Shown in pieces: positions 3,318 through 49,902 of a stretch of DNA of 64,000 bases. The notes under the pieces are model-generated. The model did no database searches and was not told the DNA's origin. It saw only the letters and a program-made list of their open reading frames with translations. The stretch's first letter is position 1. Each line of letters starts with the position of its first letter. Source of the DNA: Halorussus litoreus (lineage in GTDB: Archaea > Halobacteriota > Halobacteria > Halobacteriales > Haladaptataceae); contig NZ_QLVG01000031.1 in NCBI RefSeq assembly GCF_003382685.1, positions 1-64,000 on the forward strand. Reading direction: 5' to 3'. Position numbers and translations under genes: made by a program.

Positions 3318-4839
3318 TCAGTCGATGTAGCCCAGATCCTGCAGCCGGTCCTTCGCGTCGTCGCTCATGTCGCCGAGCACGTCGTCGTCCTCGACCTCCT
3401 TCCACTCGCCGCCGACGTTCTCCTCGAACTCCGAGAGCGCGGCTTCGAGTTCGATCTCCTCGTCACTGCCCTCGCCGCGCGAGTCGTCGGTCTCGTCCGG
3501 GTCGTCGTCGAGGTGGTAGAACTCGTCGGTGATGCGCTCGTTGCGGACGTACTTGGCGTCGGGGCGGCGTGCGGCCCGCATCCGGGAGTAGAACCGGGAG
3601 TTCTCGTCCAGTTCGATGCCGGCGTCCGCGGCCTTCTGTTCGAGCTGCTTGAGTTCGACCACCGGTCGGTAGTATTCCACGAAGGCGAAGTCCCCGTCGC
3701 CCGGGTGACTCCCGGGCGACTTTTCCGAGGCGCTCCGCGCCTCGCTCTCCGCAAACTCCCGATAGTCCGCCGAGAGCAGCGACCGCGCTCGACTCGCGCG
3801 CCTCGACGCCGGCGTGGTCGAGCACCGTGTGATAGAGGTCGACGAGTTCGACCTGCTGGTCCTCTCGACGACCGGTCTCCATCTCGGGGTGTTTGACCAG
3901 CAGCGGGACGTTCACGAGGGGGTCGTAGATGCAGAACTCGTGGCCATACAGGCCGTGCTCGCCGTGGAGTTCGCCGTGGTCGGCGCAGACGACGACCATC
4001 GTGTCCTCCCACTCGCCGTTGTCCTTGAGCCACGAGAACAGCCGCTGGAGCTCGGCGTCGATGTGGCGGATCTCGGCGTCGTACAGCCCCTCGATGGCCT
4101 CCCACTCGTCGTCGTCGATGTCTCGGGCACCGCAGTTGTACTCCTTGGAGTTCTGGCAGACCTTCGTGGAATCGACGCCGGGCGCGAACTCCTGCTTGTA
4201 CTCCTCCGGCGGGTGGTACGGCAGGTGGGCGTCCATCAGGTTGACGAACGCGAAGTAGCCGTCGTCGGCGTCGTCGATGAACTCCATCGTGCGGTCGATC
4301 ACCTGCGGGGTCTTCGAGTCCGCGCCCTCGCCCGAGGCCGTGTACTCGTGGATCTTGTTGCCGACGCTTACGAGGTAGTCGGCGACCTTCCGGAGCGACT
4401 CGCTGTCGTTCATCGTCTTCCACGCCTTGGCCAGCGGGCCCGAGAGGAAGTCGCCGGGCATCACCTCGAAGAAGTTGTCCTGATCGTCGAAGCCGTCGGT
4501 GAGGTGGGTGTACGGCGTGATCCACGCGTTCGACGAGTAGCACGCGGTGTCGTAGCCCGCTCCCGAAAGCGTCTCGGCGAGCGTGGTCGCGCCTTCGAGG
4601 TACGGGTTCTCCTGACTCGCACCGTGTTCGCTGGGGTACATCCCCGTGAACAGTGAGGCGTGCACCGGGAGGGTCCACGGAGCGGGGGAGACCGCCTGCT
4701 CGAAGACGGCCGCCTCCTCGGCGAACCGCTCCAGTCCGGGCGTCGTCGGCCGGTCGTAGCCATAGACCGAGAGGTGGCTCTTGCGAACCGTGTCCATGAC
4801 CACGAACACGACGTTCCCCGCGGCGTCGTCGTTGGTCAT
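3318..4839 (-). pseudogene. sulfatase / alkaline-phosphatase-superfamily hydrolase, frameshifted
   Basis: The N-terminal 2/3 (from 4839) is a typical sulfatase-fold hydrolase: FVVMDTVR with metal ligand Asp16, the nucleophile region PAPWTLPVHASLFTG with Thr at position 56, and a CADHGELHGEHG metal site. The frame breaks at about 3781-3788. Shifting by one base restores a continuous family-like C-terminus ending DAKDRLQDLGYID at 3318, so one base (probably a C in a GCGCGG context) is missing. A repaired protein would be about 507 aa. Either the gene is genuinely inactivated or this is a sequencing error. The likely role would be sulfate or phosphate ester hydrolysis. Start at 4839 is supported by a TATA box 28 nt upstream. 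Confidence 0.8.
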
Positions 4840-6595: not shown

Positions 6596-6655
6596 GGCGG
6601 CCGTCTTGATCCGATTTGGTTGTGACCGAGACGCCCTCAGAGCTTGCCCAACTCT

Positions 6656-6680
6656 CGCACGAATTCGACCAGTTCGTGCG
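6656..6680. terminator. hairpin between convergent genes
   Basis: CGCACGAA (6656-6663) and TTCGTGCG (6673-6680) form an 8-bp perfect stem with a 9-nt loop, located between the ends of the DUF1648-type gene and the CBS-HEPN gene. It is a possible bidirectional terminator; no T-rich tract is obvious. Confidence 0.4.
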
Positions 6681-6700
6681 CCGACTCGATCTTTCAGGAG

Positions 6701-7435
6701 TCACACTGAGGAGAAGTACGACTGACCGAAGCGGAGCAGGTCCCGATCAAATTCGTCTGGGTCGTTGATTCGAAAGTGGAAGAGCCGATTTCGCATATCA
6801 CCGATTTCACGCACTAACTCGCGAATCACATCCTGTTGGTCGTCGAAGAGCGATTCGAATTCCTCCCAGTGGATAGAGATGAATTGAGCATAGTGTGCGT
6901 AGCTACAATGTTCGACCGACGCCGGCGTTGGCAGTGGATGATCATCATCGAACGTCTCGGCCAACTGCTCCGACAACGAATCACCAAACACTCGTGTGAA
7001 AATCTCGCGCAACTGCATCTCGATCGATTCAATCAACAAAAACGGCTCGAGCATCTGTTTCAGCTGCGTTAGAAGATCGTAGTCCGTCAGAATACGCCAC
7101 TCATCGTCTCGATTGACCACGATGTACGTGTACTCCGCGAGTGAATCGAATATCGCGAGAAGGTTCTCATCCTCGCTGATTGTGTGCGCATCTTCAACTG
7201 CTGCCCCGACCGATATCTTATCGAGTGTTTTGTGCCCGACCTCCAACTGGTGGAACGCAAGGAGTGTCCGGATGACTGACCGGTAGGTGACAATCCCGAC
7301 TAATTCGCCATCCCGCTCAACGCCGATCTGCGTGTAGCTATCCTGAAACATCCGACGAAGCGCCGTTTCAAGCTCGAGATCGTATTCGACGGTCCGGAGT
7401 TGGTTTTCGATAGGTAAATCTGCGATTGTGTACAT
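6701..7435 (-). CDS. CBS-domain pair fused to a HEPN-like domain
   Basis: Soluble protein of 244 aa. Residues 1-124 form two CBS motifs (TALRRMFQDSYTQIGVERDG and NLLAIFDSLAEYTYIVVNRD), which usually bind adenine nucleotides. Residues about 130-244 are all-helical and contain RNRLFH (Arg215-His220), matching the Rx4H motif of HEPN ribonucleases with the usual Asn after Arg. CBS-HEPN proteins with this layout occur in bacteria and archaea, sometimes in defence or stress settings. I infer an RNase gated by nucleotide binding. It stands alone, with lower GC than its neighbours. Confidence 0.8.
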   Translation of the reverse strand: MYTIADLPIENQLRTVEYDLELETALRRMFQDSYTQIGVERDGELVGIVTYRSVIRTLLAFHQLEVGHKTLDKISVGAAVEDAHTISEDENLLAIFDSLAEYTYIVVNRDDEWRILTDYDLLTQLKQMLEPFLLIESIEMQLREIFTRVFGDSLSEQLAETFDDDHPLPTPASVEHCSYAHYAQFISIHWEEFESLFDDQQDVIRELVREIGDMRNRLFHFRINDPDEFDRDLLRFGQSYFSSV

Positions 7436-7624
7436 CAGTGTCTGGATATTTGAGGCGTAGACAACTATGCGTTTCCGTGTGTATCAGAACTACTGGTAAG
7501 TACGCAGACTCCCGCGAAGCCTCTCGTGTGGGCCGCTCTTGCTATCGGAAGTGGTCTATAGAGCCGTTACCCAGGGAATCTCGAATGCTGTCATGAGCAC
7601 ATAACGCTGTCAGGCATCCAGATG

Positions 7625-8458
7625 TCAATCGAGTGCGTCACCATCGGTGGCTGAGCCCACCTCGTCCTGTACCGTTGTTGTAGCTTCGGCAAACGCCCGC
7701 AGACGCGTCACGTCGACGGTCTCTGACAGGGTGTCGAGAACTCGGTTCGCGTGGTCTTGCCGCCGTTCGGCGAGCGCACGGAGCTGTTCTTGGTCGATCG
7801 CGGGTGGAACGACCGTTGCTTCGCTCGGATCCGCATCGAGAATGAGACGGATTTGTCGTACGACGCTGAGTTCGCGTCCGAGTCGCTCGAAGTGCCGGTG
7901 ATTCGGCTCATCGAGACCAGCGAATGTCCCTCCAAGAATGGCAGCACCTTCACCGAGACTCCCTGCCGTCTCGTCGAGAAACACCGCTTTATCGTACTCG
8001 ACCGACTTATCTGGCGTGTAGGCGCGGGCAAATGTTCCTGTGATCGTTTCGAGAACCGCCGTCAGTATCTCGAAACAGTCGCCCGAGCGAGAGTCGGGTA
8101 CTGAGCGAAGTGACGAGAATGCGGCTGTGTAGAAATAATCCCCGGCAAGCAGCGCTGCTGTCGGCTCCAGTGTGAGCGAGTGCGCGTGTTTGTCGGTGAG
8201 CGTGACGAGCAATCGACTTCGGAGACGAACGGACTCCCTGAGTAGTTCGATAGCTGCGGCGGCAGGAAGGACGTCCTCGTAGTCTTTGTGCTCCGACAGT
8301 GAATCGTACACGCGAACCGCCAGTTGTCCGTACCATCTATCGCGGGGTTCCTGCAGTACATTACGGACAAGCGGGGGACCGACCTTGTCCGTGTCTCTGA
8401 GCTCTACCTCTATTTGATGCTCTATCTCTGAAGAGCCGATACGATCAAATTCACTCAT
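7625..8458 (-). CDS. polyprenyl-synthetase-like protein lacking catalytic aspartate motifs
   Basis: Protein of 277 aa with an all-helical pattern. LLAGDYFYTAAFSSL at about residues 104-118 matches the LxGDxLxxxAF helix of trans-isoprenyl diphosphate synthases, but neither DDxxD motif is present. This agrees with the haloarchaeal family I recall as DUF7114. It probably keeps the prenyltransferase fold without the classical activity. It lies 5 nt downstream of the MATE exporter gene, so the two are cotranscribed. A role in sensing or binding isoprenoid-like compounds alongside efflux is only inference. Confidence 0.75.
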   Translation of the reverse strand: MSEFDRIGSSEIEHQIEVELRDTDKVGPPLVRNVLQEPRDRWYGQLAVRVYDSLSEHKDYEDVLPAAAAIELLRESVRLRSRLLVTLTDKHAHSLTLEPTAALLAGDYFYTAAFSSLRSVPDSRSGDCFEILTAVLETITGTFARAYTPDKSVEYDKAVFLDETAGSLGEGAAILGGTFAGLDEPNHRHFERLGRELSVVRQIRLILDADPSEATVVPPAIDQEQLRALAERRQDHANRVLDTLSETVDVTRLRAFAEATTTVQDEVGSATDGDALD

Positions 8459-46743: not shown

Positions 46744-48777
46744 ATGAACCCGGAGTTTACGGCGCTCGTCGATTCCGACGGGGTCCGGATCACCGACCCC
46801 ATCGAGCGGACGCAGTTCGACCTCCACGCGCCGGCGGCCGTCTCGCCGGGGCGAACGGACACCGACGCGTTCTACTTCCCGGTCGACACCGCGATCTCGG
46901 TCCGGACGCCGTGGCTCCGGACCACGAAGGGACTCGACGTGTACGCTCGAGACACTGACGGGAACATGGTGGGCGAGTCCAGCGGCGGCTCTCGCCTCGA
47001 CCTCCCGGCCGACGCGTACAATCTCGAACTCGCCAGCACGCAGATGAAGGTGTACCTCGCGGTCGAGAGTGAGATCAGCGTCTCTGGCGACCCTTCGGCG
47101 GTCGACATCTCGTTCGGCGGAGAGACGCGGGTCGAGATCGGCGCGCGGTCGCTGCACGAGCAGCCGGCGGGAACGATTACTGTTCCAGATGACGTCGGCG
47201 CGACGATGGACGCCGTCTCGCTGCTCGGCTCCGCACTGAAGACGACCACGTGCGAGCGGTCGTTCCCCTCGCTGCGGGGGCACCCACCGCTGGTCGAACC
47301 CGGCGAGAGATTCACGGTGGAGGGTGACATCACTCGCCCGGAGACGGGCGTCAAGATTCAGGTCCCGGAGAAGCGCGAGGCCGTCTACGAGGTCGCGCCG
47401 CTGGCGTTCTACCTCGGCGCGGACGTGGTGCCGGGGCGCGAGCCACGGCTCATCACCGACGACTTCGAGTACGCGCTCGATGCGCCGGGCGACCTTCAGC
47501 AGGGCATCAATCAAGTGCTCCAGCAGGTGTTCTTCCTCGACTGCGTGACTCGCACCGAGGGCTACTATCAGGTCGACTTGCGGGAGCGGGCCGACCTCGA
47601 ACCACACGTGGACCTCGACTTCGCCACTCTCTACGGTGCGCCGCTGGCCGAGCAGCTCCGCCGGTACCTCGACGTTCCGTTCGAGGTGGTCGAACCCCAC
47701 CTCCCGCGGTGGAAGGTGACGATGGACGTGTCGCCGACCCACGAGAACGTCGCGGTGCTCCCGTTCGCCGCGGACGAACTCGCGGTGGTCCGCTGTCCGG
47801 ACGACCCGGACCCCTCGAAGGTCGAACCGGAGCCGGAGGTGTTCGAGACGTTCTACCGTGGCGCGGGCGACAGCACCCTGTCGGCGGACGTAATCCACCC
47901 CAAGCCGGCCAACTCCATCGAGCAGGTCTGGGTCGGTGAGGAGATGCCCATCGGCGCGAGCAAGGCGACGCCGGAGTCGCTGAAGCGCCGCCTCGACGTG
48001 ACGCCCAAGCACCAGATCACGGTGGACGTGGTCTGCAACGACGACCGCATGCGCGAGGAGGACGTGGTCGGCGACATCTACGGGACGCGGGACCTCTACG
48101 AGTTCAACGTCACGGTCCACAACGACGTGACGACTGCGGGGCTTCGGAACCTGCTCAAATCCGACACCGACTTCCTCCACTACATCGGTCACGTCGACGA
48201 CCACGGCATTCGCTGCATCGACGGCATGCTCGACGTGTCGACCATCGAGGAGTCGGGCGTTCGTGCGTTCATCCTGAACGGTTGTCGGTCGTACGAGCAA
48301 GGCGAGCAGTTGGTCGAGAAGGGGAGTCAGGTCGGCGTGGTCACGCTAACGAAGGTCGGGAACGAACCCGCAACGGACGTGGGAACAGAACTCGCGCGGT
48401 TGTTAAATTATGGGCTCACCTTTGCAGGAGCGGTTGCCGTGATTATGGAGGACAAGCAAAGACAGTACACTGTATTAGGGGATGGTGGGGTTGAGTTAGT
48501 AAAGACGAAGTGTGGGATACCACTTGTAATACACATCGAGCGAAATGGCAGTGGATACTCGACGGAATTCCACGCTCATGCGACCACGAACTACTCGATG
48601 GGGTCTCTCATGAGTAATAAGTTCGGCAACTCACCAGTTCGGACTCTGGGATCGAGCGTTCTACAGAAACAGTTCGATAGTGATGGCCTCCGCGAGTGCC
48701 TAAACAGCGGGAAGAATCCAGTTAAGGTTGATGGCGAACTCTTTTGGAGCGACGAGATTTCTATTGATACTATTTAG
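46744..48777 (+). CDS. CHAT-domain caspase-like protease with foreign-looking C-terminus
   Basis: Protein of 677 aa. The N-terminal 460 residues are beta-rich and of unknown family (starts FTALVDSDGVRITDPIERTQ). From about residue 465 it follows the CHAT protease plan: FLHYIGHVDDHG with catalytic His483 and RAFILNGCRSYEQG with Cys514, then GVVTLTKVGNEPATDVGTEL. CHAT enzymes cleave proteins and act in immunity and cell death (for example Craspase-type TPR-CHAT). From about base 48400 (residue 552) the DNA turns AT-rich, with rarer codons such as TTA, to the stop: the last 125 residues look exchanged. Own TATA box; neighbours are an MFS exporter and DUF7504-like copies. Confidence 0.8.
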   Translation: MNPEFTALVDSDGVRITDPIERTQFDLHAPAAVSPGRTDTDAFYFPVDTAISVRTPWLRTTKGLDVYARDTDGNMVGESSGGSRLDLPADAYNLELASTQMKVYLAVESEISVSGDPSAVDISFGGETRVEIGARSLHEQPAGTITVPDDVGATMDAVSLLGSALKTTTCERSFPSLRGHPPLVEPGERFTVEGDITRPETGVKIQVPEKREAVYEVAPLAFYLGADVVPGREPRLITDDFEYALDAPGDLQQGINQVLQQVFFLDCVTRTEGYYQVDLRERADLEPHVDLDFATLYGAPLAEQLRRYLDVPFEVVEPHLPRWKVTMDVSPTHENVAVLPFAADELAVVRCPDDPDPSKVEPEPEVFETFYRGAGDSTLSADVIHPKPANSIEQVWVGEEMPIGASKATPESLKRRLDVTPKHQITVDVVCNDDRMREEDVVGDIYGTRDLYEFNVTVHNDVTTAGLRNLLKSDTDFLHYIGHVDDHGIRCIDGMLDVSTIEESGVRAFILNGCRSYEQGEQLVEKGSQVGVVTLTKVGNEPATDVGTELARLLNYGLTFAGAVAVIMEDKQRQYTVLGDGGVELVKTKCGIPLVIHIERNGSGYSTEFHAHATTNYSMGSLMSNKFGNSPVRTLGSSVLQKQFDSDGLRECLNSGKNPVKVDGELFWSDEISIDTI

Positions 48778-49197
48778 GGGCCAGCTGTTCCGCACTGGAT
48801 GCAGTCGGATGGTGTTGGTGCTTCTGACAGATAAAAACCCATCAGGAACAGCATTTCCACTAACTTTGGGTGCCGTCTCAATCGTGCAAGAATCCAATCT
48901 TTCATCATATACCCATTCATCCCCCTGACCAAAAAATACTTTCATTAGAAAATATACTAAAAATTCTGTAGCTGTTTTATATCTGGTTTCGATCCACATC
49001 TCGACTAGCGATTTGTATTTTCTGTCAGCCGGTTACGGCCTCTACTCATCTTGCTGGCCGGGAAGCGTGGACGTTCAAATTCTGACGCGCAAGAGCGCCC
49101 CTGACTGGAAGACGGGCCAACACGCGCAGAGAAATCCACGCCTGCTTAAACGTATCTCAACTACCTCTGGCGCTTGATTGCCGAATTAGATACAAAA
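48778..49197. other. AT-rich region with decayed coding sequence
   Basis: About 420 bp after the CHAT-like gene. The first 220 bp are the most AT-rich of the window; a minus-strand frame of 99 codons (48700-48999) is open but overlaps the CHAT 3' end, and I do not trust it. At 49065-49200 the plus strand encodes SAPDWKTGQHAQRNPRLLKR and, one frame on, YLNYLWRLIAELDTKF then a stop, the look of a frameshifted gene end, possibly transposase-derived. Recombination junk next to a foreign gene tail. Confidence 0.5.
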
Positions 49198-49204
49198 TTT
49201 TAAA
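49198..49204 (+). promoter_or_regulatory. TATA box of DUF7504-like copy B
   Basis: TTTTAAA, about 30 nt before ATG 49231, in a context (CAAAATTTTAAACC) almost the same as copy A's promoter. Confidence 0.6.
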
Positions 49205-49230: not shown

Positions 49231-49902
49231 ATGAACAACGGACCGGACGTTCCCCCTGCGGAGTTCACCGACCGGTTGCAGACACTGAAACAGCGCGGCT
49301 GTAACATCCTTGTGACCGGCACGGTCAGCGAGGAGGTCTCCCAGCGGATGACCCGGAAGCTCCTCGGCGAACCCGAGAACCCGCGAGCCCGCATCCTCGC
49401 GCTCACCGATCAGGACCGCGAGGACGCGCCGGATCTGCTGCCCGACAGCGTCGCACCGAGCGACGAGAGCGTGTCCGTCGTCGACGTCGGTGGCACTCGG
49501 TCGGCGACCGCCACGTCGCCGCCGGAGGCCGGGGCTGCGTGGCATCGGGATGGCATCGACGAGCTACGGAAGAGGGTCTGTGACGCCATCGCGACCGCGA
49601 AGATCTCCCAGTCCGGATTCGAGCCGGCGCAGCTCCGCGTCTCGGTGTTCACCCTCTCATCGCTCGTGAACCAGTACGATCCCGCGGCAATCGAGCAGTT
49701 CGTGAGCGCGCTGGGCGACCACGTCCGCGGTGCACGGGGGATGGCACACTTCCACCTCCCGGTCGCCGACGACGCCGAGGCGGTCCGCCGACTCGCGCCG
49801 CTGTTCGATGTTCGCATCGAACTCCGTGAGACGAACGGCCTGCCCGAACAACGGTGGCACTTCCCCGACCGCGACGTCTCGACTTCGTGGGTCGGACTGT
49901 AA
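49231..49902 (+). CDS. DUF7504-like protein, copy B
   Basis: Protein of 223 aa, paralogue of copy A. N-terminal half: DRLQTLKQRGCNILVTGTVS, RKLLGEPENPRARILALTDQ, alignable with copy A but clearly diverged; residues from FEPAQLRVSVFTLS to the end are nearly identical at protein and DNA level. RecA/KaiC-like remnant fold without Walker A; role unknown, possibly signalling. The two genes point away from each other across the 42-50 kb segment. Confidence 0.8.
   Translation: MNNGPDVPPAEFTDRLQTLKQRGCNILVTGTVSEEVSQRMTRKLLGEPENPRARILALTDQDREDAPDLLPDSVAPSDESVSVVDVGGTRSATATSPPEAGAAWHRDGIDELRKRVCDAIATAKISQSGFEPAQLRVSVFTLSSLVNQYDPAAIEQFVSALGDHVRGARGMAHFHLPVADDAEAVRRLAPLFDVRIELRETNGLPEQRWHFPDRDVSTSWVGL
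49615..49902 (+). repeat. inverted repeat arm B (gene-conversion tract)
   Basis: Partner of 42185-42472 in inverted orientation. Homologous recombination between the arms would invert everything from about 42.4 to 49.7 kb without damaging either gene's C-terminus. Confidence 0.85.

Follow-up and report, generated by a model that had tools for sequence, protein, structure and literature searches.

Gene organization of the locus

The window, a stretch of 64,000 nucleotides of Halorussus litoreus DNA (contig NZ_QLVG01000031.1, positions 1 to 64,000), contains a gene for a 677-residue protein of the CHAT family and, converging on it, a small gene whose stop codon (48774-48776) overlaps the stop codon of the larger one (48775-48777). 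The features of the locus are as follows.

46744-48777, plus strand: CHAT/caspase-fold protease gene with a hypervariable C-terminal domain, predicted from the open reading frame, Pfam matches in homologues and fold matches of an AlphaFold2 model
46744-47184, plus strand: N-terminal beta-rich region, residues ~1-147, from the secondary structure of the model; no match in Pfam or to another family
47701-48507, plus strand: predicted caspase/CHAT fold, residues ~320-588, from the ranges of VIA alignments (320-588, Z 12-16)
48190-48192, plus strand: codon of the predicted catalytic His483 (YIGHVDDHG)
48283-48285, plus strand: codon of the predicted catalytic Cys514 (LNGCRSYEQG)
48505-48774, plus strand: hypervariable AT-rich C-terminal beta domain, residues 588-677, a proposed peptide reader, delimited by steps in identity and in GC at third codon positions (GC3)
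48715-48720, plus strand: Asn658-Pro659, the site before an invariant proline; the residue at this site in Halorubrum co-varies with residue 36 of the peptide
48774-48908, minus strand: DUF7503-like gene, MMKDWILARLRRHPKLVEMLFLMGFYLSEAPTPSDCIQCGTAGP, from downstream alignments and a weak Pfam match, with a family search finding the same place
48777-48803, minus strand: variable peptide end CIQCGTAGP, adjoining the variable CHAT tail in the DNA, from comparison with L002-L007, loci of the same genus
48909-49010, minus strand: AT-rich stretch 5' of the peptide gene, a probable promoter region; homologous loci dip to AT-rich sequence at an equal distance

The larger gene encodes a predicted caspase-fold protease

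By itself, the product of the larger gene gave no above-threshold match in Pfam (including CHAT, PF12770), in NCBIfam, in PADLOC or, by sequence, in the PDB. PF12770 was, in turn, matched by 21 of 61 homologues (E<=0.1; best 2.1e-5). An AlphaFold2 model of the protein (pLDDT 86, pTM 0.88) retrieved SAVED-CHAT 8tl0 in a Foldseek search (E 1.5e-6), and VIA alignment of residues 320-588 gave Z scores of 15-16 to gingipain, separase and SAVED-CHAT, which together with Craspase are the nearest folds to this region. Neither Pfam nor the model revealed TPR repeats in the protein. His483 and Cys514 are unchanged in all 61 aligned homologues. The preliminary description of this DNA had proposed a CHAT protease from the two motifs; both lie in the open reading frame, and the Pfam hits of the homologues and the model comparisons bear the fold out. 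The gene product is accordingly described here as a CHAT/caspase-fold protease, proteolysis itself being a prediction. Homologues, mostly of full length, are present in 83 of 99 related genomes, and the 13 matching stretches in the genome of the window come from eight CHAT copies.

A convergent DUF7503-type gene accompanies the protease gene

The sequence following the CHAT gene had been read as decayed coding sequence; it holds instead an intact, convergent small gene of the DUF7503 type, a partner that the preliminary description missed. As a divergent copy, it matches DUF7503 (PF24335; E 0.023, 13-15 bits) under the curated cut-off of 27 bits, relatives scoring 72-74 bits, and the encoded peptide shares with these relatives its position, its length (43-44 amino acids in the family), an HP motif and a GP end. 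A tiny open reading frame on the opposite strand is conserved downstream of CHAT loci, and its stop codon often overlaps that of the CHAT gene. In 71 non-redundant sequences the leader of the peptide has Val or Ala at position -3 (96%), any residue at -2 and Ala or Gly at -1 (100%), and is followed by 7-10, mostly nine, variable residues closing with GP. In the Halorubrum peptides Ala32 and Ala34 hardly ever change, and the variation lies in residues 36-40. The peptides of the genus of the window (L001-L007) end in C..C...GP and are without the AxA site; their CxxC motif may point to another mode of maturation, to a disulfide or to a metal site.

The two genes are nearly constant partners. A DUF7503-type reading frame adjoins nearly all of 72 CHAT-family members examined, and a CHAT gene is present at all 40 further DUF7503 loci sampled, in convergent orientation at 39 of them (36 by automatic scoring and three by the strands given in a genome-wide DUF7503 search). 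For two of the 36 the automatic scoring showed an incorrect small reading frame; the strands from the search make these convergent too. At the sole non-convergent locus (L185, G089:C3) the peptide gene is on the same strand as the CHAT gene, 1.4 kb away. At the CHAT-family locus L018 (G080:C1:486534-486796) two tandem DUF7503 genes with the identical end SNTSSISGP stand behind one CHAT gene. Each DUF7503 match in the genome of the window adjoins a CHAT copy. Among 393 genomes of the phylum DUF7503 is confined to the order of the window, and of 14 control genomes only Haloferax volcanii contains it. The module of CHAT and DUF7503 genes is present in several copies in this genome and is widespread over the Halobacteriales.

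Two groups of CHAT genes serve as contrasts. A second Halorubrum paralogue (L188-L207, 20 genomes), possibly a pseudoprotease, has lost the catalytic His and Cys motifs; no DUF7503 gene was detected beside it in any of the 20 genomes, and it displays no sharp conservation step and a smaller GC3 change. In orthologues from Natrialbaceae the tail is milder, at a distance of 0.42 vs 0.28 for the core; the peptide end varies less (mostly G..SQ[IV]GP), the drop in GC3 is small, and the peptide tracks the core as much as the tail.

The C-terminal tail is a hypervariable domain of shifted composition

Between 48200 and 49200 the GC content falls from ~0.66 to 0.45, and the GC3 of the CHAT gene falls from ~0.90 to 0.51-0.56 in its final fifth. 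The shift to AT-rich sequence that the preliminary description placed at about 48400 is real. It is not unique to this copy, and the variable domain starts at about residue 588 (48505), after the caspase fold, with GC3 in the window copy beginning to drop ~35 codons earlier. In most CHAT-family members, from several haloarchaeal families, GC3 falls over the final 90-100 codons. The difference in GC3 between body and tail averages 0.29 in 40 family members; in ~190 neighbouring control genes it is -0.007 +/- 0.08, with a maximum of 0.18 once three CHAT-family members are removed from the control list. The drop in the CHAT family is therefore far beyond chance, and the flatness of the control genes led us to reject a GC artefact as its source. 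In Halorubrum the two ten-codon bins that precede the boundary have a GC3 of 0.89 and 0.69 and an amino-acid identity of 0.96 and 0.88; beyond it GC3 is 0.50 and identity 0.31. Both steps coincide, directly after ...TICQSRSG. Exceptions exist: tails are GC-rich in L046 and L080, both without a detected peptide, and in the copy L031 of the genome of the window, and the peptide-bearing members L018 and L034 have little or no GC3 drop. The AT-richness might stem from the divergence of the cassette, which would prevent heteroduplex formation and thereby spare it GC-biased gene conversion.

The tail keeps a framework (PNG..G.GS, NYYVP, LE..PVF and L.WSD) within which the remaining residues vary. 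The domain alone is predicted to fold (pLDDT 85); compared with solved structures it gave no clear fold match. The gingipain alignments extend into the first tail residues, and do not establish an Ig fold. Because homologous tails with the same framework, mostly AT-rich, occur throughout the family, the proposal that the last 125 residues are a foreign graft is rejected. The same tail at uniform GC in many haloarchaea was not seen either; the tail domain is common, but it is hypervariable and its GC is shifted.

Tail and peptide end are replaced as one cassette

Among 41 Halorubrum orthologues the mean distance is 0.17 in the core and 0.60 in the tail. Sixteen pairs with cores less than 6% apart have tails that are 19-67% apart, and, conversely, L109 and L132 are 19% apart in the core and only 13% in the tail. 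In AU tests, run with fewer replicates than recommended, the core tree and the tail tree were each rejected by the data of the other. Within an allele class the dN/dS of the tail is 0.06-0.23, and between sequences with close cores that belong to different classes its dS is mostly saturated; these values indicate replacement between old alleles rather than rapid mutation. At the nucleotide level, pairs with close cores have identities of 0.91-0.93 for the core and 0.96 for the leader, against 0.53 for the tail and 0.60 for the variable codons of the peptide. The tail and the peptide end are thus one cassette between conserved arms, and the CHAT tail is a homologous domain, usually AT-rich and predicted to fold separately, that is swapped as a cassette across haloarchaea. 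Tail replacement and diversifying specificity, both anticipated in the preliminary description, are upheld by these distances, tree tests and nucleotide identities.

Other sources of the diversity were considered. Hypermutation is rejected by the low dN/dS within allele classes, and a diversity-generating retroelement by the lack of an RVT_1 match in the genome, in a search whose positive controls worked. As for silent tail cassettes, the tail matches in the same genome all lie inside CHAT copies, except for a weak one (C52, E 0.03).

The two ends of the cassette co-vary. A partial Mantel test of tail against peptide given the core gave r 0.21 (p=0.0012), and that of core against peptide given the tail was not significant (p=0.13). 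Tail-nearest partners whose cores are more than 10% apart have a peptide-end distance of 0.36 vs 0.53 expected (p=0.0002). At the level of residues, Leu or Phe before the conserved proline of the Halorubrum tail goes with Ala36 in the peptide, and other tail residues go with Val, Ile, Met or Gln; this pairing, with ten changes on the tail tree, holds in 40 of 40 sequences, a count that omits the frameshifted tail of L117. Since the grouping of residues had been picked after viewing the data, the pair was retested against the best of all tail columns with traits simulated on the tree, where it gave p=0.0007, with nothing comparable in the core. None of the other five peptide traits (positions 38, 39 and 40; the Q and M states of position 36) reached significance once the tree was taken into account. 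Beyond this pair the coupling is statistical and of modest size (r about 0.2), and part of the association is linkage, since tail and peptide, being neighbours, are transferred together in any case.

A candidate peptide-matched protease module

That the CHAT tail and the peptide end are swapped jointly between species points to a peptide-matched protease system not previously described in archaea. We propose, with a probability of roughly 0.5, that the two genes constitute a cognate peptide/protease recognition module with a caspase-like reader. The small gene would produce a DUF7503 precursor consisting of a conserved leader and a variable Gly-Pro end of about nine residues, the putative code; in most lineages the leader appears to be laid out as a signal peptide, with a candidate signal-peptidase site just before the code. 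The last ~90 residues of the CHAT protein would form a separate hypervariable beta domain that reads this code. With the genes converging, the reader domain and the code are neighbours in the DNA, and homologous recombination between the conserved core of the protease and the conserved leader could replace both jointly, a process that would keep lock and key matched and maintain old, diverse alleles. The nonapeptide may be released or membrane-held and then recognized by the tail domain. Binding would presumably turn the protease on or off, and the outcome could be growth arrest, death or regulated cleavage. Cognate binding between tail and peptide is the firmest prediction, common to the signal, inhibitor and substrate readings of the module.

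As to its function, the module may, at somewhat below even odds, serve archaeal peptide communication or self-recognition. An exported hypervariable nonapeptide with a Gly-Pro end would be read by the swappable protease tail, and a private code in each lineage would gate proteolysis; old alleles would persist in several species, like those of MHC or pherotype loci. Export, direct binding, control of proteolysis and a part in sensing kin or cell density are inferred. The case for export is weakest in the window copy, since the peptides of its genus are without AxA and carry CxxC. A plain signal peptide is seldom so strongly conserved as this leader, which counts against the module reading, as does the Natrialbaceae peptide that tracks core and tail alike.

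The same pairing and co-variation would fit a toxin-immunity or securin-like pair, in which a membrane-anchored DUF7503 peptide is an inhibitor or guard whose variable end, seated on the variable domain, holds the protease off, and loss or displacement of the peptide, for example upon infection, frees it. DUF7503 has a single hydrophobic segment, and the fold resembles that of separase, an inhibitor-held enzyme. We nonetheless regard such a pair as unlikely: the -3/-1 pattern suggests cleavage over a stable anchor, and no defence genes lie nearby. PADLOC gave no defence match in the CHAT protein or its eight neighbours, and the defence-linked hotspot of the preliminary description finds no support in this result. 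Alternatively, the CHAT protein might cut its own DUF7503 peptide and thereby free a membrane-active or signalling fragment, as in protease/gasdermin or Craspase/Csx30 pairs, with the variable tail as an exosite. The invariance of the catalytic dyad and the lack of DUF7503 beside the dyad-less paralogue in its 20 genomes are consistent with a substrate role, but no conserved cleavage motif was found beyond the signal-peptidase-like site, and the peptide varies at its very C-terminus, directly before an invariant final GP; a protease-substrate pair seems distinctly improbable. It is mainly the -3/-1 pattern that places the peptide-signal reading above both the inhibitor/immunity and the substrate pair.

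A further account, to which we give very little credence, is that conflict with viruses or other factors diversifies the tail, and that the peptide end varies by linkage only. The two variable parts do adjoin, and both VARTIG (PMC8416519) and a CHAT protein diversified by a retroelement (PMC10907252) offer precedents for a variable C-terminal sensor with no peptide. Hitch-hiking, however, leaves unexplained the residue-level match of tail and peptide, the constant partnership of CHAT and DUF7503 genes and the parallel drop of tail and peptide variability in Natrialbaceae, and the low dN/dS within classes speaks against an ongoing arms race. No viral homologues were found.

Relation to known systems

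The proposed peptide-signal module shares several traits with the RRNPP, Rap-Phr and arbitrium systems of Firmicutes: an adjacent gene pair, a small propeptide (~43 amino acids here) whose short C-terminal code follows a leader resembling, in most lineages, a secretion signal, a cytoplasmic partner, and many paralogous pairs per genome. It differs from them in that the partner is a predicted caspase-fold protease of ~690 amino acids with a beta domain and no TPR, the genes converge, the hosts are archaea and binding is proposed here. RRNPP systems are defined by a Sec-secreted propeptide of 10-100 amino acids beside the gene of a receptor of 250-500 amino acids with TPR repeats (PMC10075063). 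DUF7503/CHAT loci have a propeptide of that size adjoining the putative receptor gene; because this receptor is a protease without TPR repeats, the module is not an RRNPP member.

Among archaea, the closest parallel for a C-terminal domain that recombines is VARTIG of Thermococcales, a large multi-Ig protein with changing downstream genes and a C-terminal Ig domain made hypervariable by recombination (PMC8416519); here the modelled fold is that of a caspase, not multi-Ig, and there is one constant small partner. In the CHAT-TIR-CLec protein of Thiohalocapsa PB-PSB1, a C-terminal sensor domain is diversified by error-prone reverse transcription (PMC10907252). That protein is likewise a CHAT protein with a diversified C-terminal domain; in the haloarchaeal genome, unlike there, no RVT_1 reverse transcriptase was found, and selection within allele classes is purifying. 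SAVED-CHAT and Craspase (TPR-CHAT/Csx29), the best structural matches, have the caspase fold and the His/Cys dyad in common with the window protein, which differs from them in that it contains neither a SAVED nor a TPR region, has no CRISPR or CBASS genes around it and is proposed to be regulated by a paired peptide. At the pherotype loci comQXP and agr, a contiguous hypervariable stretch that includes the peptide and the receptor domain is exchanged as a cassette between conserved arms. The module described here is also a single hypervariable cassette of peptide and putative reader; no histidine kinase or modification enzyme was found in it, and there is no homology.

CHAT and DUF7503 are each already catalogued as families. 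In the open-access papers searched DUF7503 is unmentioned, and neither a link between CHAT and DUF7503 nor CHAT domains in connection with haloarchaea or Haloferax appear; subscription journals and preprints lay outside this scope, so novelty is provisional. To our knowledge, peptide signalling and kin recognition have hardly been described in archaea, and a caspase-fold enzyme that reads a peptide code would be new. With its AT-rich hypervariable stretch flanked by strongly conserved arms, the module represents a clean natural lock-and-key cassette, and the presence of a DUF7503 gene in the genetic model Haloferax volcanii makes the system directly testable.

Other observations

Some copies of the family are disrupted. 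At L072/L117 the tail is frameshifted and the peptide gene is intact, and at L079 the reading frame stops after 151 codons. In the window, the only other gene with an apparent GC3 drop (0.45) is a sulfatase-like gene at 3466-4839 on the minus strand, in which GC is unchanged and the last ~110 codons appear to be out of frame owing to a frameshift; a region at ~6600-7700 has a lower GC content (~0.50-0.53) in a background of 0.65. The module of the window is followed by a DUF7504 (PF24336) gene at 49231-49902 on the plus strand, and a similar gene start lies behind several of the loci L002-L007.
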